From Tahibacter amnicola (GTDB taxonomy: Bacteria > Pseudomonadota > Gammaproteobacteria > Xanthomonadales > Rhodanobacteraceae), in contig NZ_CP104694.1 in the NCBI RefSeq assembly GCF_025398735.1, forward strand, positions 3,435,001 through 3,499,000: a stretch of 64,000 bases of DNA. Reading direction: 5' to 3'. A program made the position numbers and the translations under genes. Below, piece after piece: positions 1-45,331 of the stretch; position 1 is the stretch's first letter; each line of letters starts with the position of its first letter. Below the pieces are notes generated by a model. That model had not been told where the DNA came from. It ran no database searches and saw only the letters and a program-made list of their open reading frames with translations.

Positions 1-748
1 CTGGGCGTATGGCGCAGGTCGAGGCCGAAGATTTCCAGCCGATGGCCCCACTCGGCGAAATCCGGCTCCTGCGCGTAGCGGGCGGCCGAGTCGCGCGGAA
101 AACGCGTGGTGACAATCAGCTCGGCGCCAGCACGCAGCAGCTTCAGGCCAGCCTGGTAGCCGATCTTCACGCGGCCGCCGGTCAACAGGGCCACGCGGCC
201 GCGCAGGTCGGCGAGCTCGGTGCGCTTGGTGAAATTGAATGCAGCGCAGGTCGGGCAGAGTTGGTCGTAGAAATGGTGGATCAGCGAATACTTCTGCTTG
301 CAGACGTAGCAGTGCTGCGGCTGGATCGACTCGCGTGGTTCCTCAACCTCGCCGAGCGAATCCTGCGGGTCGAAGTTCTCGGGGGGAACACGTTCGGCGT
401 GGTGAAGACCGGCTTGCGCCGCAGCACGCGAATGCCGGTTTCGTGCAGGACAGCGTCGTCGCTGCGAATCTGCGCCTTGCTGCGTTCCTTGGCGGCCGCC
501 TTGCGGCGTTGCCGGCGGGCAACCGGGTCGGGGATGAAGATCTGTCCCGCCATCTCGTGCAGACGCTGGCGATCTTCGGCCGGCAATTTCTCCAGCAGGG
601 CGTGGTTGTTTGCCAGTAGTTCCAGCACAGACACGGCCCCGCGCACGCGTTCCAGCAAGTCGCGGTCGTCGATTGCGGCGGCGGGGGATGGTGCAGTCGT
701 ATTCACAGCAGGAAATCCGTAATGGGTGAGCGGCAGGCCGTCGGTCAT
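1..748 (-). CDS. SDR-family oxidoreductase with N-terminal Cys-pair domain, partial and frameshifted
   Basis: Read on the minus strand from ATG at 748, running off the left edge. The first ~120 codons are in one frame (MTDGLPLTHYGF...). Near 381-386, a run of six G on the plus strand, the sensible frame changes by one base. The new frame gives FDPQD, then a Cys-pair segment (CYVC ... CPTC) like a small zinc-binding region, then the Rossmann start RVALLTGGRVKIGYQAGLK and VTTRFPRDSAARYA. Seven G instead of six would restore one reading frame. Bacterial and plant SDR proteins with this N-terminal Cys-rich extension are known to me as an uncharacterised oxidoreductase group; the substrate cannot be told. 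The frameshift is either a homopolymer error or a true lesion. The catalytic Tyr-Lys part lies outside the window. Confidence 0.7.
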
Positions 749-9698: not shown

Positions 9699-10562
9699 AT
9701 GACGGCGTTCGTATTTCCTGGCCAAGGATCGCAGGCGCGAGGGATGGGCGGAGAGCTCTTTGACCTCAAGGAATACTGTGCAGTCGAGCGCGATGTCGAT
9801 GCGCTGCTGGGCTATTCGTTGCGGAGACTGTGCCTGGACGATCCGGAAAATCGTCTCAAGGAGACACAGTACACGCAGCCGAGTCTCTACGTCGTCAATT
9901 CCCTGCATGTGTTCAAGGCCGTCGTCGACGGCGCCCGGCCTACCCATGTCGCCGGCCACAGCCTTGGTGAATACAATGCCCTGTGTGCCGCCGGCGTATT
10001 CGACTTCATGACCGGCCTGCGCCTGGTCAAGATGCGCGGCGAGCTGATGGCACAGGCCAAGGACGGGGGAATGGGCGCGGTCATCGGGCTGGATCGCGAC
10101 ACGATTGCGGCGGTCGTGCGCGACAGCGGACTGGCTGGCGTCGACGTTGCCAACTTCAATTCTCCGGTGCAGACCGTGATTTCCGGCCCGGTTGCCGAAA
10201 TCGCCCGCGCCGGCCAGCTGCTCGAGCAGGCGGGGGCGCGCATGTATATGCCGTTGCCGGTCAGCGCGGCGTTTCATTCGCGCTACATGCGCGAGTTCGC
10301 TGATCAGTTCGAGGAATTTCTGCGTCCGTTCTCCTTCGCGCCGCCGCGGATACCGGTTATTTCGAACGTCACCGCGGAGCCGTACCCGGCCGATAGCGAG
10401 TCGATCAAATCGCTGTTGGTGCGGCAGATCACCCAGTCGGTCGAATGGACGCGGAGCATCCGCTGGTTGCTCGCCCAGGGCGTGACGGATATCCGTGAAG
10501 TCGGCCCTGGAAAGGTATTGACCCGACTGGTGCAGCAGATCCAGCAGGATCCCGCCCGCTAG
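9699..10562 (+). CDS. Free-standing malonyl-CoA:ACP acyltransferase (trans-AT)
   Basis: A 287-aa FabD-like acyltransferase. It starts at ATG 9699 (MTAFVFPGQGSQARGMG), preceded by the G-rich AGGGGGG at 9685-9691; upstream in-frame codons (from 9510) show no family similarity. The active-site motif GHSLGEYNAL holds the nucleophilic Ser, and the catalytic His is in AAFHSRYM. The segment HSLGEYNALCAAGVFDF is typical of the stand-alone ATs of trans-AT PKS clusters (PedD, PksC, BaeC type). All PKS modules in this window lack an AT, so this enzyme is expected to load malonyl units onto every ACP, including the loading module. It is the first gene of the cluster and is followed at 49 nt by the phosphotransferase gene. 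Confidence 0.95.
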   Translation: MTAFVFPGQGSQARGMGGELFDLKEYCAVERDVDALLGYSLRRLCLDDPENRLKETQYTQPSLYVVNSLHVFKAVVDGARPTHVAGHSLGEYNALCAAGVFDFMTGLRLVKMRGELMAQAKDGGMGAVIGLDRDTIAAVVRDSGLAGVDVANFNSPVQTVISGPVAEIARAGQLLEQAGARMYMPLPVSAAFHSRYMREFADQFEEFLRPFSFAPPRIPVISNVTAEPYPADSESIKSLLVRQITQSVEWTRSIRWLLAQGVTDIREVGPGKVLTRLVQQIQQDPAR

Positions 10563-10611
10563 CAAGGAGCATTGCCGTACAACCTGGACGTTTCCTCAGC
10601 GCGAGGCCGCA

Positions 10612-13158
10612 ATGAGCGTGATACTTGATTGGGCAGCCGCTGCTGCCGCCGGCGCCGCGCATGCCGGGGGCAAAGGCTGGCACCTTGGCATGCTGTCCGA
10701 GTTCGGCATTCCCGTGCCGCCGGGCTTTGTCGTCGACTCTGCCGCGTTGGCCGGACGCCATCGCGGCGAAGTGTTGAATGAGGCGCTGGTCGCCTCGCTG
10801 GTCGATGCGTTGGACGTGCGCGGCTGGAACGACGTGCCGCTTGCGGTCCGATCGTCCGCGGCGAGCGAAGATTCGACGCGCACTTCGTTTGCGGGCGTCT
10901 ATAAAACCCACCTCCATGTGCGCGGAATGCCCGACCTGGTGCACGCTGTGCAAGCGGTCCTGGATTCGTACTGGAGCCCGGCCGCTGCGGCGTATCGCGA
11001 GCGGTTCGGACTGTCCGACGAAACGGCGCGGATGGCAATCATCGTGATGCCGATGCTGGCGCCGGTAGCGTCGGGCGTGGCCTTTACCTGCGATCCCGTC
11101 GCCGGACGCGAAGATCAGCTCATCATTCATGCGAATTGGGGGCTGGGCGACAGTCTGGTCGGCGGGCTCGCCGAAGCCGACGAGTACCGGCTCCAGGTGG
11201 GCTACCCGCAGGAAAATCTCTCGCTGGTGGGTCAGACCTGCGGGTCGAAAGCCCGGATGACCGTGCCCCGCGCTGGCGGGGGCACCGAACTGGCGGATAC
11301 GCCCGATCATCTTGTTTCCCGTGCTGCATTGAGTGCGGCGCAGGCGATCGAGCTTGGCGAGCTTGTCCGCGAGCTGGCGACGACACTGGACTACTCCAGG
11401 CCGTTTTACGACGTGGAATGGGTTTGGGACGGGGAAAGGTTCTGGATCGTGCAGGCCAGGCCGATCACGGTGCGCAACCGGCAGACGTATGCGGCGCTCA
11501 AGACTCAGCCCACGGTCTGGTCCCGCGGCAATTCCCGCGATGTCGTGCCGGATCCGCTTCCGGCGCTGGACCGCAGCGTGTCGCTGCCGCTGATCAACCA
11601 TATGCTGACCCGGAGCGCCGCGCGTGCCGGATATGCGACGCTCCCGGGCGTGCAGCGGACCGCCACGCATCACGGCCGTGTCTATTTCGAGACCTCGATA
11701 CTCCAATGGGAGTCGTTCGACGGCTTTGGCGTGCCGCCGAAGGTATACAACCGCCTGCTGGGCGGACATCAGCCGGAGATCACGGTTCCAGAGCCCACGC
11801 TTGGCGACCGGGTGCGGCGTGCGTGGCACGGCATGCGCTTCCTGCAGGCCTGTGTGCGTCCGCGGCTCCAGGCAAGGGCCATACTCGCGGCCGCTCACCA
11901 GGCGGCGGCGAACCACCTTGAACAACCCTTGCCCGGCAACCCTCGCGAACTCGCGGAGCGGCTGCGTGCACGCGTCATGGCCACGCGCACCAACGACGAT
12001 CTCCTGCTGTTGCAAGCGGCCGGCAGCGCGATGCTGGTACTGCTCGACTTGCTGGAAGGACACTTCCCGGGAGAAGGCGGCGCCCGCGCTGCCTCGCTCA
12101 TGAGCGGTGGCGAACCCAGTGTGACGGCGGCGCAGGGGCATGCGCTCGTACAGTTGGCGCAGATCGCCGCCGCAGATCCTGTTGCGCTTGCGTGGCTGCA
12201 GTCGCCGCAGCGCGACGGACGGGAATGGCGTCAACGGCTGGGTCGCGATAGCGCGTTTGGTCATGGCCTCGAAGCATTCTTGCAGCGATATGGCCACCGT
12301 GCTGTCTACGAAAGCTACCTCCAGCATCCGCGATGGCGGGAGGATCCCGGCTTCATCCTGGATGCTGTCGCTTCCTTGATCGACGGTGGTGTTGAACCCG
12401 GTCGCGAATCGGTCTCCAACGGCAACGCGGCGCGGGAGCGCGTTCTCGCGCAATTGCCGATCTGGGACCGGCCGCTTGTTCCATGGCTGGTGAAAATGGC
12501 AATCGCCGAACGCAACATGCGTGAGGGCGCGCGCAGCGCATTGACGGCCCAGTTGGGTGTCATGCGGCGGATTGTCACGGCGCTGGCTGACCAGTGCGTC
12601 GCTGCCGGGCATCTGGAGTCGGCAAATGACGTGTTCCACCTCACCTGGATGGAGTTGCAGGCGCTGGCAGAGGGGCGACTGGCCGCGCAACACGCCATGC
12701 AGCGCGTTCGCCTGCGTCGTCGTCAATTCGCTGCATTTGCGGCCGCCGACGCGCCCGACGTCATTCTGGAATCCGGTGGTTCGCTGTCTGCGAGCCGCCC
12801 TGCCGCGCGGACCGCGACGCCGGGCGCTGAGGAATGGCAGGGGGTCGTGGTCGCCAGTGGCTTTGCAAAAGGCGCCGCGGTGCTTGCTCATCACCCCGGC
12901 GAAGCACTGAATCTGGCGGCCGGTTCCGTCCTCGTGGCGCCCGCCACCGATCCCTCATGGACGCCGGCCTTTTTCAAGGCAAGCGCCATCGTGATGGAAA
13001 CGGGAGGCTATCTCTCTCACGGCGCAATTGTTGCCCGCGAACTGGGGATTCCGGCAGTCGCGAATGTCCCCGGGATTCTCGGGGCATTGAAGAGCGGCGA
13101 TGACCTGGAAGTTGACGCGAACCAGGGCCTGGTCAGGCGTGTGGCCCCGGGCTCCTGA
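10612..13158 (+). CDS. PEP-synthase / rifampin-phosphotransferase-like enzyme
   Basis: An 848-aa protein with the layout of PEP-utilising phosphotransferases. An N-terminal ATP-grasp half has GGKGWHLGMLSEFGIPVPPG (residues ~19-38), VRSSAASEDSTRTSFAGVYK, GVAFTCDPVAG and WIVQARPIT. A central helical region follows. The C-terminal swivelling domain carries METGGYLSHGAIVARELGIP, where the His (about residue 803) is the phosphocarrier. The family transfers a phosphate from ATP via His to pyruvate or, in rifampin phosphotransferases, to a drug hydroxyl. The calyculin trans-AT pathway has phosphotransferases of this general type. In this position it most likely phosphorylates the polyketide or an intermediate, as tailoring or self-protection. 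It could also be an accessory metabolic enzyme. Confidence 0.85.
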   Translation: MSVILDWAAAAAAGAAHAGGKGWHLGMLSEFGIPVPPGFVVDSAALAGRHRGEVLNEALVASLVDALDVRGWNDVPLAVRSSAASEDSTRTSFAGVYKTHLHVRGMPDLVHAVQAVLDSYWSPAAAAYRERFGLSDETARMAIIVMPMLAPVASGVAFTCDPVAGREDQLIIHANWGLGDSLVGGLAEADEYRLQVGYPQENLSLVGQTCGSKARMTVPRAGGGTELADTPDHLVSRAALSAAQAIELGELVRELATTLDYSRPFYDVEWVWDGERFWIVQARPITVRNRQTYAALKTQPTVWSRGNSRDVVPDPLPALDRSVSLPLINHMLTRSAARAGYATLPGVQRTATHHGRVYFETSILQWESFDGFGVPPKVYNRLLGGHQPEITVPEPTLGDRVRRAWHGMRFLQACVRPRLQARAILAAAHQAAANHLEQPLPGNPRELAERLRARVMATRTNDDLLLLQAAGSAMLVLLDLLEGHFPGEGGARAASLMSGGEPSVTAAQGHALVQLAQIAAADPVALAWLQSPQRDGREWRQRLGRDSAFGHGLEAFLQRYGHRAVYESYLQHPRWREDPGFILDAVASLIDGGVEPGRESVSNGNAARERVLAQLPIWDRPLVPWLVKMAIAERNMREGARSALTAQLGVMRRIVTALADQCVAAGHLESANDVFHLTWMELQALAEGRLAAQHAMQRVRLRRRQFAAFAAADAPDVILESGGSLSASRPAARTATPGAEEWQGVVVASGFAKGAAVLAHHPGEALNLAAGSVLVAPATDPSWTPAFFKASAIVMETGGYLSHGAIVARELGIPAVANVPGILGALKSGDDLEVDANQGLVRRVAPGS

Positions 13159-13900
13159 ATGCGCTTCGATCTGGGGTTCGCGTCGTTTCGCCGGGGGGCG
13201 CGCCCTCCGGGGCTCCCGGGGGCATCGCGTTGCCGCACTCGGGACTGACGCCGCTCCCGGGAAGGGCGCAGGCGCAGGAGGGGTGTAGCCGCTATACTCG
13301 GGGTTTGGCGAACAAGGGTTGATGACTCAGCCAAGGTCGCCTCAGTCCATACGCATTCGAATAAGTGAGGGGGTCGGCATGCGTGCTCGTGTGATATCAG
13401 GTTTCCGGTATACGGGGATTTTCCCGATGCCAGGTGCTGCGGAAAACCTCGTCACACAGGGGAAGGGCGCAGCGTAGAAGCCCCGTCGGCGACAGAGGCC
13501 GGCGTCGGGCGAAAGCCCAACGACCTCCGCCAGCGACCAGACCTTGCTGTCACGAAGACTTGGTCATCGCAATCTCGCCGAACGGCCGGCATCCAGCGAG
13601 TCCGCATCTCCCGCCAGGCGCTCCGCCACGAGCTGACGGGGAGGAAGCCGGACAGGCACTCGCCGGAACTGAATCCGAATAAGTCACTCAACGCCATCCC
13701 GGGTCTGCGGTGCACGCGAGCGTGCGGCCGTGCGATGCGTTGATCAGCGGTCGTGTCAAAACGCGTAGAACCGGGTGGCTGGCGGTCTGACGTCGGGGGA
13801 AACGGGCTTTGGATGCCCGGAATGCAGCATGTAGTGCGGATTGCTCACGCGTCCGTCGTGAGCCTGGCCCACTACTGGACCAATTGTTAGGGAAGTGAAG
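13159..13900. promoter_or_regulatory. 742-nt leader region upstream of the giant PKS gene
   Basis: No open frame here resembles a protein. The region probably contains the promoter or untranslated leader of the 31-kb PKS gene. A TATACT at 13293-13298 could be a -10 box but has no good -35. The 9-mer cgaataagt occurs twice (13358-13366 and 13676-13684), a possible binding site but weak. No terminator-like hairpin with a T-run was found after the phosphotransferase gene, so read-through from upstream is possible. Confidence 0.3.
13889..13895 (+). promoter_or_regulatory. Ribosome-binding site of the giant PKS
   Basis: AGGGAAG lies 5 nt before ATG 13901. The in-frame GTG at 13895 overlaps this motif, so ATG 13901 is the better start. 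Confidence 0.55.
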
Positions 13901-16900
13901 ATGCTCGAGTTACTGAACCGGTACGCACACGGCTTGGCGGTCGTTCCGTTGGTGGACGCGCTCCGAGGGCGAGGCTGCCTGCAGTCCATTGCGGATGCCG
14001 TAGCGGTTCAGCCGGCTCTGTTGGCAGAAACGTTTCGCATCAATCCGGGGTATCTCGCGGTCGCCCTGCGCCTATTTGAGTCCCTGGGCTGGCTCAAGGC
14101 CCTTGACGACGGCACCTACGCACCGACGCCTGCATTCCGGGACGTGGACCTTATCCCCGACGATGTGATGACGGCGTACCGCCTACCATTCGAGCAGTAC
14201 GCGCTGGATGATGACCCTGCACTGCTCGGATCCTGGCTGGAACGTTCGGCAGCGCGCTGGGGCGGCGATCACGACTACCTGGCGGACTATATCGACGGCA
14301 CTTTCGTGATTCCGTTGCTGCTCGCCCTCAAGCAGAACACGCACGTCCGCCTCGTCGAGCAGGACTGCGAGGGCCGCAAGATATCCGTTCTTGATCTGGC
14401 GCTCGGACAGCGGACCCGTAACGAAATCGTGTCGCTGTTCTGTTCCCGGGGATGGGCGCAGGTCGCAGCTGATGGAACGCTCATTCTCACTGGCGCCGGC
14501 GACTACGTTTGGGGACGGATCCACATCACGGCGGCCTTCGCTTCCTACCGCCCGATGTTCCTGCGTGCGGAAGAGCTCTTGTTCGGCGATCCGAAGGCCG
14601 TTTTCACGTACGACGCGAATGGCCATGAACTGCATCTGGACCGCGCCCTGAACGTGCTGGGCAGCGGCTTCCAGCATGAAAAATACTTCGTTGACCTGAG
14701 CGCCCTGATCGTTTCGGTGTTCGATTCGACAGAGCTGGCCGAGCAACCCAGGTACATCGCGGATACGGGATGCGGCGACGGCACGCTTTTGCGGGAAATC
14801 TACGAAACCATCAAGCGCCGCACGCTGCGCGGCCGCTTCCTGGATCGTCATCCACTCGTGCTGATCGGCATTGACGCGAACGCCAAGGCGCTGGAGGCAA
14901 CTGCGAGAACGTTGCAGAAGTACGAGCATCTGACGCTGACCGGCGATATCGGCGATCCCGCGGGTATCGTCGCAACGCTCGCCAGTGAGGGAATTGATGC
15001 GGACAGCGTGCTCCACGTTCGCTCGTTCCTCGATCACGACCGCACATACCGGCCTCCGACAGACAGTGCGGGCGTGGCTGGTTGGGAGCGGGTTCCCGTA
15101 TCCGGCGTTCACATCGACGCCGACGGAAAACTGATTTCTCCGGCGCTGGTTGCGCAGAGCACCGTTGAGCATCTGCGGCGTTGGTCGGATGCTGCCGGCC
15201 GTCACGGACTGGTCATGCTGGAGGTTCACAGCCTGCCGGCGGCGACAACCGCACGCTTTCTGGACGAAGCGGAGAGTCTGCACTTCGACGCCTATCACGC
15301 GATGTCGCGGCAATTGCTGCTGGATGCCAAGACATTCCTGATGTGCGCGGCGCAGGCGGGCCTGTTCTGCGACGCCGGTGCCTGGCGCCGCTATCCGAAA
15401 ACGCTGCCATTTGCGCGTATCAGCCTGAGCCTGCTCAAGCCACGGGCATTCTCGGTGCGATTCGCACGCGCCGATGATGATTCGCAGATCGCAATTCTCG
15501 AGCATTCCTGGCGTGCGGAAGAGGGGCTTGGCGAGCCTGTTCACGGCGTCGCAGCGGGGCCTGCTGTGACGGGCTTCCCGGAGGGGCAGTTCGTCGTCGT
15601 TTCTGACGGCCAGGTAGTAGCGTCCGCTACTTGTTCACGGCGTTCCGCGCGCGGCGAGCCAGGTCGCGACGGGGCATCGAGCCCGTTGCAGGCGGCACCG
15701 GAAGCCCTTCGACTGGAGACCGCGCGCTGGGCCGGCTCTGCCGGAACAGAGGTGGTGACGGTACTGGTCGACTTCATCGAGCAGTATTTCGCCTACGAGG
15801 GCGGCGGTATCGACAAGGCGGGCCTGGACGAGTGCAAGTCGATCGCCGTATTCGGCTCTGCGTTGACCTCGGACCATGGACGCCGTGTATCCAAGGGCGT
15901 CCGCCGCCTGAAAGCCGTGATTGGCACGTCGCCCGGCCTTGATCCGAGCCTGGCGGAAGCGGACCTCGCGACATTCGTGCTGCGGGCGATCGTTTCCGGA
16001 CTGCAGCGCAAGGGCGTGTTTCTGGCCGGTAACGAATCCTACGAACGGGAGCGGTTCCGCGCTTTGCTCCGCGTGCCGCCCAAGTACGAGCGCTACATCG
16101 ATTCCCTGTTGAATCGCCTGCGCCTGAGAGGACTTGTCTCTATCCAGGACGGGCGGATCACGTCTCATGCATCGATCGCCGCGTTTGCGTTGCGCGATGC
16201 CGAATCGGAGACGGCGGCCTTCGAGCGGACTTTTCCCGTTCGTCATCCGCATTTTGCGGAAGCGATGAACTTCGTACTGCCGATTCTTCGCGAATACACC
16301 CGGGTCATCGGCGGTGAGATCGATGCAGCGGCAGTGATGTTCGCGGGCGGCAATATCGACCGGTTCGGCGGCATCTTCCAGGGCGAGCCTGCATCGGAGT
16401 ACTACAACCGGCTGGTCGTCGAAGCGGTTGCCAGCTACGTTCACGAAAAGCTGGCGTCGGCCGACCCGTCGCTCCCGCAGCGGAAGATACGCATTCTCGA
16501 GGTGGGCACCGGATCCGGAGCCACCGCCAATGCGCTGCTGCGAACGCTCGGGCAACGCCCCGAACATGTGGAACTGTGCCTGTCCGACATTTCGCCGGCC
16601 TTTCTTCGCTATACACAGCGGCGCTTTTCCGCGGCTTATCCCTGGGTCACCTACAAGGTGCTCGATATCGGTACTGATGTCGTTGCCCAGGGCATGGAGG
16701 CGCATTCGTGGGACATCGTCGTCGCCGGAAATGTGCTTCACGACACGCGAAACATCGTCTTTACACTTGAGCAGACGCGGCGGTTGCTCAGAGGTGGCGG
16801 GCTGCTCGTCGCTAACGAATACACCGAAGTCAAGGAGTGGCATTTTGCAGGCGGCGCACTGCTGCATGGCATGTGGCTCTTTGACGATCCGGAAATGCGC

Positions 16901-17785
16901 CTGGACCAGTTCTGCCTGCTGGGGGTTGAACAATGGCGGCATGCCATCGTCGAGGCAGGCCTCGTACCGCTCGACGCGCTCGCCCTGCCTTCGCAATCAA
17001 TCACCGGCAGGTGCGGACAGTGCGTATTGCTGGCCGAAGCGCCAGCACACGTCGCGGAGCCGCAGATCGAACCGACGTCGTTGGACCCAGGTCCGGTGCC
17101 GGTGGCGTTCCCCGCTCCCGGCAATCATGCCGAGCCGGGTTCGATCCGTTCGTCCGGCCGTAGCGCTGTTGAATTGGCGGTCACTGTAGAAGAGCAGGTG
17201 CGCGCGCTGCTCGGCGTCGAGCGGGCTGATCGCTACTGCGCATCAAGCCCCCTGATGGAACTGGGTCTGGATTCGGTCGAGCTGGTCGAGTTGAAGAGTC
17301 TTCTCAGTGCCCGATTTGGCATCGCATTGCCCCCGGCGTTCTTGTTCGAGTGCGAAACGACGGAAAAGGTCATCGCGGGACTCGAGGCGCGGTTGCCAAA
17401 GTCGACACCTATTGCAGATGCGCCCAATGTCGGGCCGGCCGCTGCTGCACCCGTGGTGGTGGAATCGAAAGCCGGTGATCCGGGAGTCGGGGCGCCTGTG
17501 TCCCGTTCGCGACCTGCGCAGCCAGTCGCGATCGCCACGCCACACCGCAGCGCCGTCGAGGTTGCGGTAATCGTAGAGGAACAGGTTCGTACCCTTCTCG
17601 GCGTCGAGCGGGCTGCTCGCTACGCTGCGTCAAGCCCGTTGATGGAACTGGGGCTGGACTCGGTTGAACTGGTCGAGCTGAAGAGCCTTCTCAGCACGCG
17701 TTTTGGCGTTGCGCTTCCGCCGGCCTTCCTGTTCGAGTGCGAAACGACGGAAAAGGTCATCGCCGGGCTCCAGGCGCGGTTGCCG
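13901..17785 (+). other. Loading module: MT1-pseudoGNAT-MT2-ACP-ACP (AprA-like)
   Basis: MT1 (13901-15440) joins a helical/winged N-part (LLNRYAHGLAVVPLVDAL) to a methyltransferase core with IADTGCGDGTLL and HVRSFLDHDRTY, the hallmark of the mononuclear-iron MT1 family of GNAT loading modules. A short GNAT-like piece follows (FSVRFARADD ... FPEGQFVVVSDGQVVASATC, about 15446-15650) without a recognisable acetyl-CoA loop, as in the truncated pseudo-GNAT of apratoxin AprA. MT2 (about 16216-17045) has RILEVGTGSGATANALL and GNVLHDTRNI. Two similar ACPs carry GLDSVEL serines S1125 and S1254. In AprA this set makes dimethylmalonyl-ACP and then pivaloyl-ACP by coupled decarboxylation and methylation. 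A tert-butyl, or less likely isobutyryl or propionyl, starter is inferred. Confidence 0.8.
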
Positions 17786-20700
17786 AAAGAAGGCACTGCT
17801 CGCGTTGCGCCCAACGGTGCACCTGTGGCGGTGGTACCTGGGCCGGTCTTCACTGAGTGCGTGGTGACAGAAACCAGACCGACCTTTTCCTCGTCGGAGT
17901 TGCAAGTGCCCGGCTCACGCAAAGCCGTGGCAGTGGTCGGTGTTTCCTGCCGGTTTCCCGGCGGAGCGAACTCTCCTTCGGAGTACTGGAACTTGCTGAG
18001 CAGCGGCCGGGAGGCCGTAGCGGCAGTGGATGGCCGCTGGCAGTGGCCGGCGACCGTCGATCTGGAGGGCAGCCACCGGGCGATCAATCAGGTGGGGCAT
18101 CTGTGGCGGATCGACGAGTTCGACGCGCAGTTCTTTCGCATTTCACCGCGCGAAGCCGAGCTGATGGATCCGCAGCATCGATTGCTGCTGGAGCTGAGCT
18201 GGGAGGCGCTCGAAGATGGCGGCTACGCACCGTCGAGCCTGGGCGGAAAGAGTGTCGGTGTATTCATCGGCGTCTGCCACGATGACTATCGCGATCTGCT
18301 GGCACGGCAGTTGACGTCGATCGATGCCTACGTGGGCTCCGGCAGTGCGCGTGCCGCGATCGCGAACCGCATGTCGCATTTCTACGATATCTGCGGGCCC
18401 AGTGTGTCGATCGACACGGCGTGCTCCAGCTCACTGGTGGCCTTGCACTATGCGGTCGAATCGATCAACAACGGTGACTGCACGCAAGCCCTGGTGGGAT
18501 CGGCCAACCTGATTTGTTCGGCGACGAACAGCATGGCCTACTACTCGGCGGGAATGCTGTCGCGGACCGGCGTCTGCAGCGCCTTTGATGCCAGCGCGGA
18601 CGGGTTTGTGCGTGGCGAAGGCGGCGCCATGTTGCTGCTCAAGCCGCTGGACATGGCGATTGAAGCCGGCGACACCATTTATGGCCTGGTGATCGGCAGC
18701 GCAGTGGGGCACGGTGGCCAGTCCGCATCGCTGACCGCGCCAAAGCCGGCGTCGCAGGCCGCCGTGATCGAGCGCGCCATCCGCAAGGCCGGTGTCGACG
18801 TTTCCACGGTGCAGTACATCGAGGCGCATGGAACCGGCACCACGCTGGGCGATCCGATCGAGATCGCCGGCCTGGCCGAGGCGTTCGACCGACTGGGCGC
18901 GCGTGAAACGGCGCAGCGGAAGGCGTTCCGGTGTGGAGTCGGCACCGTCAAGCCGAGCATCGGGCATCTGGAGGCGGCCGCTGGCTTCGCCGGGCTGATC
19001 AAGGTGTTCCTCGCCATGCGAAACCGGCGCATGCCGAAGACATTGCGGTTCAATCGCTTGAATCCCGGGATCGACCTGACCGGAACACCGTTCTACATCG
19101 TTGCCCAGGATGAGCCGTGGAAGTGCCTGGTGGATGAGAACAACGCACCTCTTCCACGCCGCGCCGGTGTCAGCAGCTTCGGCTCAGGCGGCATGAACGC
19201 GCATGTGGTGGTCGAGGAGTATTGCGAGCCTGCGACCGCCCAGCTGCCCGCAGCCCCGCTTCCGTCAGCCTGTCTCATCGTTCTGTCAGCCAGAACGGCG
19301 GAGCGTCTGGACGAGCAGGCCCGCCGGCTTCTGGTGGAAATCTCATCCGGACGCTTCATTGACGGGCAACTGCGCGATCTTGCGTACACGCTGCAGGTCG
19401 GGCGAGCGCCGATGGAACATCGCCTGGCGTTTTCGGCATCGTCGATCGACGATGTGATTCGGAAACTGTCGGCCTTCGTCGAACGCGGAACCGTTCCGTC
19501 TGCAAAGCCCGGAATTCACGTGGGCAACGTGAAGGAGAGCCGCGAGGTCATTGCTGTCCTGAACGAGGATTCGGGTCTCCAGGCTGGAATTTCTGCGGCT
19601 GTTGCCGCCGGCAAGTACACCAAGCTGCTGGACCTGTGGGTGCGGGGCTTGTCGTTCGACTGGGAGGTGCTGTACGCCGGTTCGGCGCAGCGTCCGCGCC
19701 GGATATCGCTGCCGACGTACCCGTTTGCGCGCGAGCGCTACTGGGTGCAGGCGGAGGAAGGGTTCGCCGCGGAGGCGGGCGCCACGTCGCACCTGCACCC
19801 GCTGGTGCACCGGAACAGCTCGGATCTGCAGGCGCAGCGTTTCAGCACGGATTTCACCGGTGAGGAGTTCTTCCTGCGGGATCATCGCGTGCAGGGATCA
19901 CCGGTGTTGCCGGGGGTTTGTTACCTCGAGATGGCGCGGGTGGCGGTGGAACACAGTGCCGGCCGGCGTGTGAACGTGCTCAGGGACGTGGTCTGGACGC
20001 GCCCGTTGCGCGTGTCGGAGCGCTGCGAGGTGCAGCTGGAGGTGTATCCGGCCGGTACGGACGAAGCGGAGTTCGTGGTGTTCTGCGGCGACAGCGAGTC
20101 GGGCCTGCACGCGCAGGGCCGTGCGTCGTGGCAGGAGCCATCGCGGGTGTCGGCGCAGCTGGACCTGGCGAGCCTGCGTGCGGGTTGTGTCGACGTGCTG
20201 GACCCGGAAGCGTGCTATGCGAGGTTCCGCGCGATGGGCCTGGATTACGGTCCGGCGCACCAGGGCCTGAGCTGGGTTGGCCGCGGCGTGAACGGCGTGC
20301 TGGCGCAGGTGCGCCTGCCGGTGAGCGTGGCTGCGACAGCCGATGCGTATGTGCTGCATCCGGGCCTGCTCGACAGTGCGCTGCAGGCCTCGGTGGCGCT
20401 GTGGAACCAGGACGGTACCGGTGCGGCACTGCCGTTTGCACTGGATCGGCTGGAAGTGCACGCGGCGATTCCGGCCGAAGCATGGGTGCAGGTCCGGGAT
20501 ATGACACCAACCGGCAGCCGCGTGCAGAAGCTCGATGCGGTGATCTGCGATGCGTCCGGCCGTGTGTGTGTGCAGCTGACGGGATTGGTACTGCGGCGCC
20601 TGGAGCCGGCGGTGCCGGCGCGGACGCTGCTGCTGGCGCGGCGCTGGCAGGCGCAGCCGGCAGCCATCGGCACGGGTGCCACCGGCGGTGTGCAGGGTGT

Positions 20701-23700
20701 CATTGTGGATCCGGCCTACGCCGGCCATGTCGCCACACTGGCCCAGCGCGACCCACAGGTGCGCTGGAGCGTGTTGGCGGACGTGCCGGACGCGGCGGCG
20801 CGGGTGAACGCCTGGGGAGAACAGGTGTTGTCGCAGGTGCAGCAGCTGCTGCGCGAGCACCCGCGCGAGGCGCTGCTGCAGGTACTGGTCGCGCAGGACA
20901 GCGAAGCGGCGTTCGCGCTCAGTGGCCTGCTCAAGAGCGTGCAGCGCGAGAACCCGGATGTGGTGGGCCAGGTCATCGGCCTGCCGGCCACGGCGGATGT
21001 CGCGGCGATAGAGCGGGCGGTGGCGGAGAACCGGACAGTGCGCCGCGATGCGGAGATCCGCTACGTGGCCGGCGAGCGCCGGGTGTGTGTGCTGGAAGAG
21101 TTGCCCACCGCAGAGGGCACTGTGTCGCTGCCGTGGAAGGCGGACGGTGTGTACCTGGTGAGTGGTGGCGGTGGTGGCCTGGGGCTGCTGCTGGCCGAGG
21201 AGATCACCCGTCGTGCGCCGCGCGCGCGCGTGGTGTTGCTGGGTCGCAGTGCGCTCGATGCACAGCGGGCGGAACGGCTGGCGGCCTGGCAGGGCGAGGG
21301 GCGTCGGATCGATTACCGGCGTGTGGATGTGAGCGATGCGGGCGCGGTGCAGTCCTGTGTCGCGGCGCTCGTCGCCGAGCACGGCCGCCTGGACGGCGTG
21401 GTGCACGCGGCTGGCGTGCTGCGCGACAGCTTCGCGCGGAACAAGACCGCGGCCGAGCTGCAGGCGGTGCTGTCGCCGAAGGTGAATGGGGTGGTGAACC
21501 TGGACCGGGCGGTGGCTGGCCTGGATCTGGATTGCTTCGTGCTGTTCTCGTCGATGTCGGGCCAGGTGGGGAATGTGGGCCAGGCCGACTATGCCCTGGC
21601 GAACGCCTACCTGGATGGCTATGCGCAGGATCGCCAGGCGCGGGTGATGCGTGGCGAAGCGCATGGCCGGACGCTGTCGGTGAGCTGGCCGCTGTGGCGC
21701 TCGGGCGGTATGCAGGCGGAAGCGGCGACGCTGGCGTGGATGGCGCGCGAGGGGCTGGAGTCGCTGGAGAACGCGGCGGGCCTTGCGGCGCTGTATGCGG
21801 CATGGAACAGCGGTGAATCGCATGTGGGCGTGGTGGTGGGGCGTGGCTGGTCCGCGGATGCGGCAACGGCATCCATCGTCGCAAACGTGGCAAATGCCAC
21901 ATCGCTGGATGTGACACCCGTGGTCGATATCCATGGGGACGACACTGAAGCCCTGCGTGACCAGGCCGTGCGCTATGTGACGCGCCGCCTGGCGGCAACG
22001 CTGAAGCTGTCGCCGGACCGGATGGCGCCGGACGAGGGCCTGGAGCGCTACGGGATCGACTCGATCCTGGCGCTGAAGCTGGTGGACGAACTGGAAGCGC
22101 TGTTTGGTCCGCTGTCCAAGACGTTGTTGTTCGAATACCAGAGCGTGGCGGCGTTGACGGACTACTTCCTGGAGCGGCACCGGGAGACGCTGGTGGCGCA
22201 GCTGCGGCCGCGTACGCGTGCGGTGGCCGCAACACCGGCGGTGTCGGTCAGTGAGCCGATGCCCCGCGCCCGCGAGGCTCGGCCGGTGCGGACACGCGCG
22301 GTTGAACCACTGTCGATGCCCCAAACCGAAGGCATGGCCATCGCCATCGTGGGGCAGAGCGGTCGCTATCCGCAGGCGGCAACGGTCGAGGAATACTGGA
22401 CGAACCTGAGCCAGGGCCGGGACTGCGTGACCGAGATTCCGCCGGAACGGTGGGATCATCGCCCGTACTTCGATCCGCAGAAGGGCGTGCCGGGCAAGAC
22501 CTACAGCAAATGGGGCGGCTTCATCGATGGTGTCGATGAGTTCGATCCGCTGTTCTTCAATATCGCGCCGCGGGAAGCGGAGTTCATGGATCCGCAGGAG
22601 CGGTTGTTCCTGCAGTGTGCCTACGCGACGCTGGAAGATGCGGGCTACACACGGGAGCGCCTGCGCGGCGGACAGCCGCAGGGTGCGCGTGTCGGCGTGT
22701 TCGTCGGCGTGATGTACGAGGAGTACCAGCTGTACGGCGCACAGGCGCAGGCGGCGGGAGAGGGCTTTGCACTGGGCGGCAATGCCTCGTCGATTGCCAA
22801 CCGGGTGTCGTATTGCCTGAACTTCCAGGGCCCGAGCCTGGCAGTGGACACGATGTGTTCCAGTTCCCTCACGGCGCTGCACCTGGCCTGCCAGAGCCTG
22901 CAGAACGGGGAATGCGAAGCGGCACTGGCGGGTGGCGTGAACGTCTCGGTGCACCCGAACAAGTACCTGATCCTGGCTCAGGGGCAGTTCGCCTCGAGCA
23001 CGGGGCGCTGCGAGAGCTTCGGCCGGGGCGGTGACGGCTACGTGCCGGGCGAAGGCGTCGGTGCGGTGCTGCTCAAGCCGCTGGCGCAGGCGATCGAAGC
23101 GGGTGACCGGATTCATGGCGTGATCCGCGGCACGAGCATCAATCACGGCGGCAAGACCAACGGCTACACGGTGCCCAATCCACAGGCACAGACCCAGTTG
23201 ATCGCGGAAACGTTGCGCAAGGCCGGCGTGGATGCGCGGACGATCAGCTATGTCGAAGCGCACGGTACGGGCACGTCGCTGGGCGATCCCATCGAGATTG
23301 CGGGCCTGACCCAGGCCTATGCGGCGCACACGGAAGAGCGCCAGTACTGCGCGATCGGGTCGGCGAAGTCGAACATCGGTCACCTGGAAAGCGCCGCGGG
23401 TATCGCCGCGCTGGCCAAGGTGCTGCTGCAGATGAAGCACGGCCAGCTGGTGCCGTCACTGCATGCGGAGGCGCTGAATCCGAATATCCCGTTCGAGCAG
23501 ACACCGTTCCGCGTGCAGCGCACGCTGCAGGCCTGGAACCGACCGCAGCTGGAGGTGAATGGGCAGCTGCAGGAACAGCCGCGTCGCGCCGGCATCTCGT
23601 CGTTCGGGGCGGGTGGATCGAATGCGCACCTGATCCTCGAAGAGTACGTAGCGCCCGCGGAACCGCCGGCCTTGCCATTCACGCCGGATCGGCCGGCGCT

Positions 23701-26700
23701 GATCGTGGTGTCGGCACGCACCGATGACCGGCTGCGCGAACGCGTGCAGCAACTGCTGGCACACACGGCGACGCTGGAGGACGCCTCGCTGGCCAGCCTG
23801 GCCTACACGCTGCAGGTGGGCCGCGAAGCGATGGACCACCGCCTGGGCCTGCTGGTGACGAGCCTGGCCGAGCTGCGCGGCAAGCTGCAGCAGTACCTGG
23901 CCGACGACGCCGCTATCGAGGAGTGTTACCGGGGCGAGGTGCGCAAGCACCGCGAGGCCATGGCCCTGTTCGCGATCGATGCTGATCTGCGCGCGACCGT
24001 GGAAGGCTGGGTAACGAAGGGCAAGTACGACAAGCTGCTGGACGTGTGGGTGAAGGGCCTGCCGATCGACTGGGAGAAGCTCTATGCCGACGCGCCGGTG
24101 CGACCGCGCACACTGTCGTTGCCGACCTATCCGTTTGCGCGGGAACGCTACTGGGCAGAGACTGGCCTCGCGGCGCACGCAATGGCCGCTCAAATGCCGT
24201 CCGTTGCCGTCGATGCTGGGCCGGACAATGCCTGCAACCTGCTCGTCGAAGAATGGCGCGACAGCGAACTCAGAACAGGCGGCCAGTCGACGCACACCGT
24301 CGCTGTGCTGTTGTCGGATCCGCAGCTTCGCCAAGTGCTCGTCGAAACGCTGGAGCGCCTGGGATCTTCCATCCGCGTTGTCTTTCCCGATACGGACCTG
24401 CTCAGGTCGACCGGCGAGAACGGGCAATCGACTCCGCGATATGCCGACGCTTCGGCGGAGCGCTTCGCGGCGCTGTTTGCATCGGCCCAGATCAGTCACT
24501 TCGCGATCGATGCGGTGTGGTACCTGTGGCCGCTGGAAGACCAGGCGGTCATCGAAGACGACACGCTCGTTCTGCGGCTGCTCCAGGGAATGGTGCGCGC
24601 GGGGATGGGCAAGGGCAGGTTGCTGCTGGCGGCGGAGTATGCGTCGCCGCTGCAACGCTGTTACCTGGAGTCCTGGATTGGTTACGCCAATTCCATCCGT
24701 CGCACGCAGCCCGGGCTTGCCGTTGCTGTGGTTCATGGGCAGGCGCACGCCACGGATGATCAGAGTGGACGCATCGCCACGTGGGCGGCGCGAATGCTGG
24801 TCGAGCAGCAGGCTGATCACGTGGAAAGCGCGCACTATGCGGGCGGCCGACGCCAGACGCTCTTCACCCGTTCCAGCACGGCGCAAAGCCAATCTGCACG
24901 TCCTGCATTCCGCCATGGGGGCACCTATCTGATCACTGGTGGCCTGGGCGGGATCGGATTCGCGCTCGCGAAGCACCTTGCGGGCCGATACCAGGCTAGC
25001 CTTGTGCTGACCGGGCGCTCGGCAATCGACGACGACAAGCGGCGTCAGCTCGACACGCTGCGCGCCCTGGGTGGGAGCCCCCTGTACCGCAGCGCCGATG
25101 TGAGCTCTCCGGCGCAGATGGAATCGGCGCTTTCGGTGGCCGAGCATGAATTCGGCGCGCTGCACGGCGTGATCCATGCCGCCGGCAGCAAGGCCGGCGT
25201 GAATTTCCTGGATGCGGACCCCGCGGAGTTTGAAGCCGTCCTGTCCGCAAAAATCTCAGGCACGCGCGTGCTCTCCGGCCTGCTTCAGCACCGTGACGTC
25301 GACTTCCTTTGCTATTTCTCCTCCATTGCCGCATCGCTGGGTGATTTCGGTTCCTGCGACTACGCCGTTGCGAATCGGTTTGAACTGGCGTTCGCCAAAT
25401 ATGCCGCCCGGAACGCCATGGCGATCTGCTGGCCCCTGTGGAGCGATGGCGGGATGGGGCTCGGCGACGCCGCAGGCACCCGCATGTATCTCCAGTTGAC
25501 CGGCCAACGGGCGCTATCGACCAGGGAAGGTATTGAACTGTGTGAATACCTGCTTGCCGAGCGCCAGGAGACGGGCGCTACGCACGCGCTGGTCATGGTT
25601 CCGCGAGCACACGGTACGACGCCTACAGACAACGAGCGTGCCAGCACGATCCGCTTGCCTCGCGATACCGATGTGGCTGTCGGAGCACGCACGGCCCCGG
25701 CGTTCGTCGAACGCGTGAAGCGTGATGTGGCGATACTGGCAGGCGAGGTGCTCAAGCTGCCGATCGAGCGACTGCACACCGACGACAGCTTTGCGGACCT
25801 TGGTTTCGACTCCGTTAGCCTCGTGGCGTTCGCCAACAAGTTGTCGACGCATTTTGGCCTGGATCTTCTGCCATCCGTGTTCTTCAGCTACTCCAGCGTC
25901 AATGCGCTGTCCGACGCGCTGGTTTCGCAGCGGTTGGGCGCCTTAGAGCACGCCTATCCGCAACAGGCGTCCCACGACGATGAAGCATTGTCCGCACTGG
26001 TCGTCGATTCCGCCAACGCCGGCGATCTGTCGTCGCGCCCTCGCGATGGGGAGCCGGGTCCTTCCGCTGCGCGGGAACCCATCGCCATTGTTGGCATGAG
26101 CGGACGCTTTCCGGGTGCACGCACGATCAGCGAGTTCTGGAACCTGCTCCTTGCTGGCACCAATGCGGTGGGCGAGATACCGGCGGATCGATTCGACTGG
26201 CGCCGCCACTATCAGCCCGGCAACCCGCTCCCGCCGGGGGCGATCAGTGCCAGGTGGCTGGGTGCACTCTCCGGGATCGACGAGTTCGACCCGGCATTTT
26301 TCGAGATTTCGCGCCCCGAAGCGGAGTTGATGGACCCGCGACAGCGTCTGCTCCTGCAGGAAGCGTATTCCGCATTGGAAGACGCAGGCTGTGGTGACGC
26401 CGGTGCCGACCCGCGGCGCGTGGGCGTCTTCGTCGGTGTGGAGCAGGGGGACTATCGGCAGTCGTCACCGCACAGCGAGAATTTCAGCGGAATTCATGAC
26501 GGTATCCTGGCAGCCAGGCTCTCGTACTTCCTGAACCTGACCGGCCCCACGATGGCCATCAATACGGCCTGCTCCTCGGGTCTGGTGGCTTTGCACCAAG
26601 CCTGTATGAGTCTGCGTGAAGGCGGATGCGACAGCGCGATTGCCGCAGCAGCCAATCTACTGCTGACGCCGAAGAACTACATCGCCATGAGCCATGCGGG

Positions 26701-29700
26701 CATGCTCTCGGCAGATGGCCAGTGTCGCGCCTTCGACCGTCGCGCTGACGGCATTGTGCCGGGTGAAGCGGTCGTCGCCGTCGTGCTCAAGCCGTTGTCG
26801 CGCGCCCTCGCGGACAACGACAGGATCTACGCGCTCATCGAAGGCAGCGGGATCAACGGCGACGGCCGGACCAATGGACTGACCGCGCCCAACGGCACCG
26901 CCCAGGCCGAGTTGATCGAGGATGTATACCGGCGCGCCGGCGTTGCGCCGGACGATATCGGCTACATCGTTGCCCACGGCACCGGCACGCGGCTCGGTGA
27001 TCCCGTCGAAGTCGGCGCGTTGAATCAGGTCTTTGCGAACAGCCGCAGGCGTGGACCCTTCTGCGCGTTGACCTCCACGAAGACCAATATTGGACACACG
27101 TTTGCTGCGTCAGGATTGGTCAGCCTCGTCAATGCGGTGCTCGCTCTCAGGCATGGCGTGATTCCGGCGAGCCTGAACTGCGAGGCGCTGAGTGACTATG
27201 TCGACTGGTCCAGCAGTCCGTTTTACGTCAATCGGAAGACCTCGACATGGCCGGATGACGCGGGCAGGCAGCGTTTCGCTGCCGTGAGCGCATTCGGCAT
27301 GAGCGGCACCAATGCGCACGTTGTCCTGCGTGCATTCTCAAACGCCCATGCGGCGACCACGCCAACGCACGTGCCGAATATCCTGGTCCCGCTTTCCGCC
27401 AAGACCGAACAGGCTTTACAGAATCGCGCGGTGGACCTTCGGAACCTGCTACTGCAGCACCGCGGCGAGTGGACACCGGAGCAGATGACCGCTCTGAGCT
27501 ACACGCTGCTTTCGCGCCGGCCGCATTTCCCTGTCCGCCTTGCGTTTGTCGCAACGGATGTGTCGCAGGCAATTGAGGTGCTGTCCGCAATCAGTGCCGG
27601 CGACGTTTCGCCTGCCGTTCGACGCGGCAAGGTTTCAAAGGGATTCTTGAAGGAAAGTGCAAACGCCGCGCAGGTCGCGCGACTGATCGCGGCGCTTGCG
27701 TCGCAGGCAGACGATGCGCGGGCTCATCGGGCGTCCCTGGAAGAACTCGCCCGTTGGTACTGCCAGGGCTATACCCTGGATGCTGAAGCGCTGTTCTCCC
27801 CGGGAGCACGGCAACTGCTGTCGCTGCCGACGTACCCGTTTGCGCGCGAACGCTACTGGGTGCAGGCGGAGGAAGGATTCGCCGCGGAGGCGGGCGCCAC
27901 GTCGCAGCTGCACCCGCTGGTGCACCGGAACAGCTCGGATCTGCAGGCACAGCGTTTCAGCACGGGGTTCACGGGCCAGGAGTTCTTCCTGCGGGATCAT
28001 CGCGTGCAGGGATCACCGGTGTTGCCGGGGGTTTGTTACCTCGAGATGGCGCGGGTGGCGGTGGAACACAGTGCCGGCCGGCGTGTGAACGTGCTCAGGG
28101 ACGTGGTCTGGACGCGCCCGTTGCGCGTGTCGGAGCGCTGCGAGGTGCAGCTGGAGGTGTATCCGGCCGGTACGGACGAAGCGGAGTTCGTGGTGTTCTG
28201 CGGCGACAGCGAGTCGGGCCTGCATGCGCAGGGCCGTGCGTCGTGGCAGGAGCCATCGCGGGTGTCGGAGCAGCTGGACCTGGCGAGCCTGCGTGCGGGT
28301 TGTGTCGACGTGCTGGACCCGGAAGCGTGCTATGCGAGGTTCCGCGCGATGGGCCTGGATTACGGTCCGGCGCACCAGGGCCTGAGCTGGGTTGGCCGCG
28401 GCGTGAACGGCGTGCTGGCGCAGGTGCGCCTGCCGGTGAGCGTGGCTGCGACAGCCGGTGCGTATGTGTTGCATCCGGGCCTGCTCGACAGTGCCTTGCA
28501 GGCCTCGGTGGGATTGTGGAACCAGGACGGTACCGGTGCGGCACTGCCGTTTGCACTGGATCGACTGGAAGTGCACGCGGCGATTCCGGCCGAAGCATGG
28601 GTGCAGGTCCGCGACGTGACCGTGGCGGGCAGCCGCATGCAGGCGCTCGATATCGATGTCTGCGATGCCTCGGGCACCGTGTGTGTGCGTTTGCAGGGCT
28701 TCCGGGCCCGGGTGCTGGAGGCTGCACCCGTTGGCACTGGCCTCGATCGTCCCGACGAGGACGAATCGCCGCGCGAGGCGCTGACCTTGCTGCCGCATTG
28801 GGAACCGCAGTGGCCGCCGGTGGGCGCGCCATGGCCGTCGCCCGAGTGCCGGGTGTTGCTGATCGGTGCGACGCCACGCCAGCAACAGGCCTGGAGCGCA
28901 CGTCATGCGCAGGTGCATTGCCTGAACATGGCTGCGGCGACCTTGATCGATGAGCTGGCCGGGCAGATCGCGACGCTTGGTGGTATCGACCATGTGGTGT
29001 GGATCGCTCCGCAGTGCACCGACGAGGACCTGATCGAGGCCCAGTCCGTCGGCGTGATCGGTCTGTTCCGGCTGGTAAAGGCGCTGTTGTCGCTGGGCCA
29101 CGGCCGCTCGGCGCTGGCGATGAGCATCGTGACGCGGCAGGCGCAGGCGGTTCGCCGCGGCGATCGTCTCGACCCGGCGCACAGTAGCGTGCACGGCATG
29201 GTGGGTTCACTCGCCAAGGAGTACCCGCACTGGAAGATCCGCCTGGTGGACGTGCCGGCAGAGGAATCGACTGAAGCGGATCTGCATCGGGACGCCTGGC
29301 TGTCGCTGCCGGCAGATCCGCAGGGCGACGCCTGGGTCTACCGCGGCGGCGAGTGGTATCGGCAGCAGCTGTTGCTGTGCGAACAACCGCCGGCAACGGC
29401 GAGTGCGTACCGGCGTGGCGGTGTGTATGTCGTGATCGGCGGTGCCGGCGGCATTGGCGAAGTGTGGAGCGAACACCTGATTCGTCGCTACGACGCCCAG
29501 GTGATCTGGATCGGCCGGCGCGCACAGGACGCAAGGATCGCCCGCACGATCGAACGGCTCGCGGCGTTCGGCCCGGCGCCGCAGTATCTGCAGGCCGATG
29601 CGGCCGATCGTGTTTCGCTGCAGGCTGCCTACGAAACCATCAAGCGACGCTACGGGCAAATCCACGGTGTGGTTCATGCAGCGATCGCGCTGCTGGACCA

Positions 29701-45199: not shown

Positions 45200-45331
45200 T
45201 ACCGATATCGCACCTCCTGAACGCCTCAGGTCGCGGGTTTGGCTCACTACCGGCCCGCGACCGGCAGACAAACTGAAAACCGAGCGCCGCGCAGAGCGTG
45301 GCTGCGGAAACCGGATCGAAAGGCAGTAGCA

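Follow-up and report, generated by a model that had tools for sequence, protein, structure and literature searches.

A putative AprA-type loading module, predicted to make a pivaloyl starter, at the head of a trans-acyltransferase polyketide synthase in Tahibacter amnicola

What starter unit is used by a polyketide synthase (PKS) whose first protein opens with two methyltransferase (MT) domains around a fragment of a GNAT domain? This question is raised by a 64,000-nucleotide stretch of the Tahibacter amnicola genome (NZ_CP104694.1, positions 3,435,001 to 3,499,000; hereafter the window), in which an uninterrupted PKS reading frame of 10,434 amino acids (aa; 13895-45199, forward strand) begins with the order MT1 - GNAT remnant - MT2 - acyl carrier protein (ACP) - ACP - first ketosynthase (KS1). 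An earlier sequence-only reading had described two distinct methyltransferases flanking a GNAT piece and followed by two ACPs, an order that domain matches confirmed, and had proposed an AprA-type loading module in a trans-acyltransferase (trans-AT) PKS, which is now supported by the MT1 and MT2 matches, the MT2 tree and the lack of any acyltransferase (AT) match in the PKS. By analogy with AprA, the module probably makes a pivaloyl starter at the head of a trans-AT PKS-nonribosomal peptide synthetase (NRPS) line. The domain order and families, the lost threonine and histidine of the GNAT, the residue signatures, the kinship of MT2 and KS1 and the missing AT match were observed directly. Of what is new, the trans-AT setting, for which eight public loci provide parallels, a single MT2 branch and a residue test carry most weight.

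The features concerned are:
9699..10562, + strand, free AT, FabD equivalog (TIGR00128)
13901..15430, + strand, MT1, aa 3-512, predicted AprA-type malonyl-ACP C-methyltransferase
15431..15964, + strand, pseudo-GNAT, aa ~513-690, remnant lacking the decarboxylase Thr and His
15965..17044, + strand, MT2, aa ~691-1050, C-methyltransferase of the AprA MT2 branch
17165..17374, + strand, ACP1, aa 1091-1160, LGLDS
17552..17761, + strand, ACP2, aa 1220-1289, LGLDS
17915..19174, + strand, KS1, aa 1341-1760, DTACSSSL, first condensing domain

Residues of the PKS are counted from a GTG at 13895, two codons 5' of the ATG at 13901, which the sequence-only reading took as the start and where MT1 homologues begin.

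The first methyltransferase

MT1 matched the Pfam families AprA_N, WH_AprA and Methyltransf_36, all over cut-off (best E 7.5e-103), the last of which is labelled 'AprA MT2-like domain' by Pfam and is located here in MT1. It aligned with AprA MT1 (6b39) at E 2.3e-128 and 41% identity, and E-values of this order cannot be due to chance. A model of aa 1-690 (predicted local distance difference test, pLDDT, 86.5) matched four AprA MT1-GNAT entries with template modelling (TM) scores of 0.87-0.89 by target length, the titles of which include complexes with Mn2+, S-adenosylmethionine (SAM), malonate and dimethylmalonate. H445 of the window aligns with AprA H456, which we take to be a metal ligand, and H261, D290 and E443 are invariant in an alignment of 46 of 68 stretches; another alignment used 47 of the 68. 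The 68 were assembled after removal of 11 loci that were short, had a broken frame or nearly duplicated others, and of L036 and L095, in which no ACP was matched.

In printed alignments, window positions 467-468 are Y-H in AprA and F-Q in SxtA, and position 214 is Thr in AprA and Ile in SxtA. The window carries Ala214, Tyr467 and His468, which are dimethyl-type residues, so that MT1 appears to be of the dimethylating type. PMC10784701 reports that SxtA gained the ability to add a second methyl, mimicking AprA, when an active-site Ile was replaced by Thr; position 214 presumably corresponds to that site, and the positions considered here would be those that decide methyl number. An SxtA-type, monomethylating MT1 was rejected since Gln at 468 and a bulky residue at 214 are both absent.

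These positions were surveyed in 81 rows, comprising the window and 80 named loci (the 80 top-ranking ones among 96 that were confirmed), of which 10 rows fell into neither module class (4 of them YH). YH was present in 13/13 MT1-MT2 modules, window included, versus 28/58 MT1-GNAT modules (Fisher p 0.0004, uncorrected for kinship), and YH combined with one of the small residues Thr, Ala, Ser or Gly at 214 in 11/13 versus 23/58, L096 showing a gap at 214. An independent-pairs test of YH against MT2 presence yielded 3 pairs and had no power. A parallel for dimethylation with Thr214 and YH may be given by L055 (Corallococcus terminator), an MT1-GNAT module with both features, whose GNAT does not belong to the 12 without the Thr/His/Arg triad described below. 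PMC10100342 reports that a cluster similar to that of thiamyxin occurs in C. terminator, presumably L055, and that the isobutyryl starter of thiamyxin, judging from feeding, receives two methyls from methionine.

The GNAT remnant

In an alignment of 58 full GNAT domains from MT1-GNAT loci (58 of 60 GNAT loci passing a length filter), 61 columns with conservation of 75% or more served as the GNAT consensus. Full GNATs kept 20 to 60 of these columns (second lowest 37), while the 13 MT1-MT2 modules kept 6 to 32 and the window 20. Thr, His and Arg columns match by their spacings of 34 and 15 (by eye, in L018) the CurA residues T355, H389 and R404. The Arg and Thr are named as required for decarboxylation in PMC10100342. 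All three residues are present in 46/58 full GNATs, whereas Thr or Ser occupies the Thr column in 0/13 MT1-MT2 modules and His the His column in 3/13 (L030, L036 and L044), with a gap in the window; the window alone of the 13 shows Arg in the Arg column, in a part where the alignment is weak. The window therefore appears to lack the decarboxylase Thr/His/Arg set of an MT1-GNAT (isobutyryl or propionyl) loading module.

In the model of aa 1-690, a GNAT fold starts with its initial strands and helices and has no second half; confidence is low in the stretches 550-557 and 586-601, and no part after 653 is modelled with confidence. Judged from the alignment and the model, the GNAT of the window is probably inactive and truncated, in keeping with the sequence-only reading, which had called the piece short and lacking an acetyl-CoA loop: with 20/61 columns kept, Thr and His lost and no second half, the complete GNAT fold that would have spoken against it did not appear. 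A working GNAT was rejected on consensus retention and on the model.

The remnant is 179 aa long in the window versus 111-122 aa in Acidobacteriota modules. Two contigs of one Anaerolineae metagenome-assembled genome (MAG), L036 and L038, have near-identical MT2 and MT1-MT2 linkers of 47 and 171 aa, a difference that could be due to deletion of the GNAT remnant, strain variation or an assembly fault.

The second methyltransferase

Among solved C-methyltransferases, the best match of the window MT2 is AprA MT2 (6d6y, E 6.1e-66), followed by 6cca (DisA/DszA, 9e-46) and CurJ (4.8e-33). A model of aa 513-1062 (pLDDT 78.3) had AprA MT2-GNAT as its top match (E 7.7e-35, TM 0.72 by target), so that the structure prediction suggested by the sequence-only reading matched AprA structures on both sides of the remnant, MT1-GNAT with aa 1-690 and MT2-GNAT with aa 513-1062. 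MT2 keeps the SAM motif EVGTGSG, the NVLH His and a conserved Glu, the latter two being invariant in MT2 alignments.

A careful tree placed 14 loading MT2 (AprA and window included) on one side and 23 module C-methyltransferases (cMTs) on the other with support 100/99, a branch found in 100% of 200 bootstrap trees; 3 of the 23 come from this cluster (two from the third PKS protein and one from the second). L082 was left out of the careful tree because of its long branch and kept in the quick tree, where branch support was 98. Rows shorter than 150 aa (MT2) and 300 aa (KS) were left out of the quick MT2 tree and both KS trees; one such row was a weakly matching MT stretch in the first PKS (aa 5443-5584). 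The window MT2 groups with L098, a module of a congener, and three Acidobacteriota (100/97) and belongs by the tree to the AprA MT2 lineage. The candidate that MT2 is an ordinary module cMT was rejected by quick and careful trees.

Carrier proteins, first ketosynthase and malonyl supply

The two ACPs are identical at 69/80 positions (86%) over 80-aa stretches, and motifs are intact in both and in KS1. In a careful KS tree (41 of the 72 KS rows of the quick tree), KS1 of the window groups with three Acidobacteriota KS1 of MT1-MT2 loaded PKSs (100/99). In the best tree, 8/9 KS1 located after trans-AT MT1-MT2 modules cluster with each other, and a separate branch (99/97) holds 17/25 KS1 of trans-AT MT1-GNAT modules. 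This pattern hints at a KS1 dedicated to the starter; the same pattern would arise if KS1 and the module were inherited together. KS1 of L024, an MT1-GNAT locus, is not separated from the 8 in the careful tree, and the quick tree joins it with them at 87. A clade of all nine trans-AT MT1-MT2 KS1 was rejected by the approximately unbiased (AU) test (p 2.9e-27) because of L038, which counts against the proposed module type along with the points gathered below.

The free AT at 9699-10562, 3.3 kb upstream of the PKS start, scored 327.2 bits with TIGR00128 (cut-off 260.9) and has the motifs GQG, GHSLG, RGELM and AFHS, in which the Arg of RGELM presumably binds malonate, as in FabD. A phmmer search with this AT found 0 AT domains in the three PKS proteins (16 KS), and the same query does recover ATs in cis loci. 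The cluster has both marks of a trans-AT PKS, AT-less KS modules and a free AT. The separate malonyl transferase of an AprA-type module is likewise represented by a gene with intact motifs, and its loading of the ACPs is predicted.

Proposed starter chemistry and alternatives

In work by Skiba et al. in 2017 and 2018, AprA MT1 reportedly forms dimethylmalonyl-ACP and MT2 reportedly couples decarboxylation to a third methylation, with malonyl loaded by a separate malonyl transferase. The apratoxin starter has been proposed to derive from malonyl-CoA and three SAM methyls (PMC3075265). The MT1, MT2 and FabD reactions in the window, and hence the tert-butyl starter, are transferred from this work. 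The free AT, or FabD of the cell, would charge the tandem ACPs with malonyl, taking over from the dead GNAT; the metal-dependent MT1 would methylate malonyl-ACP twice to give dimethylmalonyl-ACP; MT2 would couple decarboxylation to a third methylation to give pivaloyl-ACP; and KS1 would accept pivaloyl, with extension by module 1 (KS-DH-KR-ACP; DH, dehydratase; KR, ketoreductase).

Several observations weigh against this proposal. The reactions are carried over from AprA at 41% identity for MT1 and ~28% over the GNAT remnant plus MT2. MT1 scores slightly higher against the SxtA MT (7uci, E 1.3e-137), a monomethylating enzyme, than against AprA MT1, and the model of aa 1-690 matched SxtA entries at TM 0.81-0.94 by target length, the 0.94 coming from one entry. 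L017, an MT1-MT2 module, has Val at 214; L098 reads YR, making YH 13/14 among MT1-MT2 modules; and YH is also common in MT1-GNAT modules, so that it argues for two methylations and not for MT2. The MT1 domains found in MT1-MT2 modules are not united in a single clade, the branch joining the 8 KS1 has support of only 45/63, and L038 is placed elsewhere. The claim of the sequence-only reading that MT1 is of the AprA kind stands for the type-separating residues, which are AprA-like.

An isobutyryl or mixed isobutyryl/pivaloyl starter, formed if MT1 dimethylates and MT2 is inactive or only decarboxylates, is unlikely; in its favour, thiamyxin-type modules stop at isobutyryl (PMC10100342) and MT2 is only ~28% identical to AprA MT2 over the aligned stretch; on the other side, MT2 keeps its SAM motif, NVLH His and Glu and falls in the AprA MT2 branch, and the GNAT that decarboxylates in isobutyryl modules is without Thr and His here. 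An SxtA-like route to isobutyryl, in which MT1 methylates once and MT2 adds the second methyl, would account for the slightly better SxtA score, but the F-Q and Ile of SxtA are Y-H and Ala in the window and the route is improbable. L098, with its altered MT1 motifs, gives some colour to a decayed or silent module that has lost its starter chemistry in a line primed otherwise; the open 10,434-aa frame and the intact motifs of MT1, MT2, both ACPs and KS1 make such decay very improbable. Hardly credible is a working GNAT starter module, with decarboxylation or acetyl loading by the middle region before the MTs come into play. Alignment of the 690-aa model by Foldseek with MT-GNAT chains of AprA and SxtA extends over 636-667 columns, which means that the GNAT fold is partly retained, but the region keeps 20/61 consensus columns, has no Thr/Ser and a gap at His, aligns its Arg in a weak stretch, and is modelled with low-confidence regions and no second GNAT half.

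The pivaloyl starter predicts a tert-butyl-capped polyketide-peptide in a gammaproteobacterium, outside the cyanobacteria, and makes the product an isolation target. A statement of 2017 held that the polyketide tert-butyl group was found only in metabolites of marine cyanobacteria, butyrolactol A excepted (PMC5355916). Butyrolactol A of Streptomyces shares the tert-butyl polyketide start predicted here, its tert-butyl being formed from valine and one methionine methyl with no C-methyltransferase gene near the PKS (same source). Loading of the ACPs in trans by a free AT may ease excision and assay of the module and, if the proposal is borne out, residue and tree signatures could serve to distinguish by sequence whether a loading module makes propionyl, isobutyryl or pivaloyl.

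Occurrence and known relatives

MT1 followed by MT2 was found in 12/80 named loci (L017, L019, L020, L030, L036, L037, L038, L044, L062, L063, L064 and L096), 8 of which have a KS1 without an adjoining AT match: L017, L064 and L096 (Acidobacteriota), L019 (Verrucomicrobia), L020 (Candidatus Endobugula sertula), L038 (Anaerolineae), L062 (Chromobacterium piscinae) and L063 (Alteromonadaceae). These eight uncharacterised loci share the whole architecture of the window, with 40-54% MT1 identity. Tandem ACPs occur within the eight in L062, L063 and L096, and outside them L030 has two ACPs and L037 has four ACP matches; with eight public AT-less loci, three of them with tandem ACPs, the set is rare and not unique. 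A search of an open literature collection without the main AprA papers showed no characterised trans-AT PKS with this module, which is weak evidence, and to our knowledge no MT1-MT2 trans-AT locus has been characterised. The rarity suggested by the sequence-only reading thus holds for characterised trans-AT examples, while uncharacterised loci have the same set, some with tandem ACPs. The terms GNAT, t-butyl and tert-butyl are absent from the main text of PMC7930024.

AprA itself (apratoxin A, Moorena bouillonii, L044; 6b39/6b3a/6b3b/7uch, 6d6y) resembles the window in the order MT1 - GNAT remnant - MT2 - ACP, in homologous MT1 and MT2, in its degenerate GNAT and in dimethyl-type MT1 residues. 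It differs in having one ACP followed by a cis-AT KS-AT module, whereas the window has two ACPs, an AT-less KS1 and a neighbouring free AT, and its MT1 is of a different lineage. MT1-GNAT-ACP modules (gephyronic acid GphF type, thiamyxin type and SxtA) have an MT1 homologous to that of the window but, unlike it, a full GNAT and no MT2 before the ACP. GphF- and SxtA-type modules end at isobutyryl or propionyl. The thiamyxin type ends at isobutyryl (PMC10100342).

The Methyltransf_36 family had one match in the own genome, this MT1, and occurred in 4/398 sampled genomes of the order, own included. A match spanning MT1 to MT2 was found in the own genome only among 369 sampled genomes of the class (at most 2 candidate places scored in each) and in 2/8 genomes of the genus, the own genome and G399, from which L098 represents a second MT1-MT2 module in the genus (44% identity). 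MT1 of L098 reads RSFLEHDR where the window type has RSFLDHDR, and with this and YR its metal site may be altered. Among plasmids, 262 records match part of the module and none covers 80% of it in one place; a megablast search of phages gave no match.

The L020 module (10001-13165), with an AT-less KS1, belongs to the bryostatin symbiont Candidatus Endobugula sertula, and some bryostatins bear pivalate esters. L010 (G307, same family) is contained exactly in L095 (Dyella flagellata).

Evolution of the module

The quick MT1 tree held 79 rows and the careful tree 47 of these, with long branches and near-duplicates taken out and the partial L096 MT1 absent. The window MT1 groups with L017, L064 and L098 (100/99), and AprA MT1 sits among cyanobacterial MT1-GNAT modules, beside L033 and L091 (100/100). 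Starred branches of the careful tree force at least 3 changes. A single origin of MT1-MT2 modules as a unit was rejected for MT1 (AU p 1.65e-76, on the quick tree with its long branches) and not for MT2.

Within one Okeania MAG, L030 (AprA-type) and L033 (GNAT-type) share 90% DNA identity from -19 to +1511 relative to the MT1 start, and their sole other match over 150 bases (70.7%) begins more than 4 kb further on. In L030, L033, L044 and L091 (Okeania/Moorena), the MT1 coding segment alone is ~90% DNA-identical across AprA-type and GNAT-type modules. Because this identity ends sharply at the borders of MT1, MT1 seems to be swapped between modules in one piece, the edge of which lies at the MT1/GNAT junction. 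MT1, MT2 and KS1 of the window all group with Acidobacteriota, and the module therefore looks to have been inherited whole here.

We lean slightly towards a dispersed tert-butyl device, in which one MT2 lineage is combined with MT1s whose tree differs from its own, and in trans-AT lines perhaps with a KS1 sub-branch, across five phyla (Pseudomonadota, Acidobacteriota, Verrucomicrobiota, Chloroflexota and Cyanobacteriota), and which would make tert-butyl polyketides a broad and overlooked class. If so, such polyketides could be mined by MT2 and KS1 type.

Cluster and genome setting

The host genome is a single contig of 6.46 Mb. Between KS1 and KS2 there is a KR motif, with DH and ACP sequences read by eye. 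A second PKS frame starts at 45239 and a third at ~62027, extending ~28 kb past the window end, and is followed by an NRPS protein with matches to two condensation (C), two adenylation (A) and two carrier domains.

Three PKS stretches of ~4.4-4.6 kb (19610-24154, 38036-42832 and 53243-57873) are 97-98% identical in DNA to one another and hold, by position, DH-KR-ACP-KS units with three KS near-identical in protein, and a further pair in the PKS genes (27818-30065 and 42791-45034) is 97% identical. The 97-98% identity and the near-identical KS point to recent duplication or conversion of module parts. Between the AT and the PKS, 10612-13158 encodes a protein like phosphoenolpyruvate (PEP) synthase and rifamycin phosphotransferase, with PPDK_N and PEP-utilizers domains, which scores under the cut-off of every NCBIfam model listed and could have a tailoring or self-protection role. 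A second KS-rich PKS region of the same genome (C1:3633794-3700023) starts ~106 kb after the third PKS frame ends.

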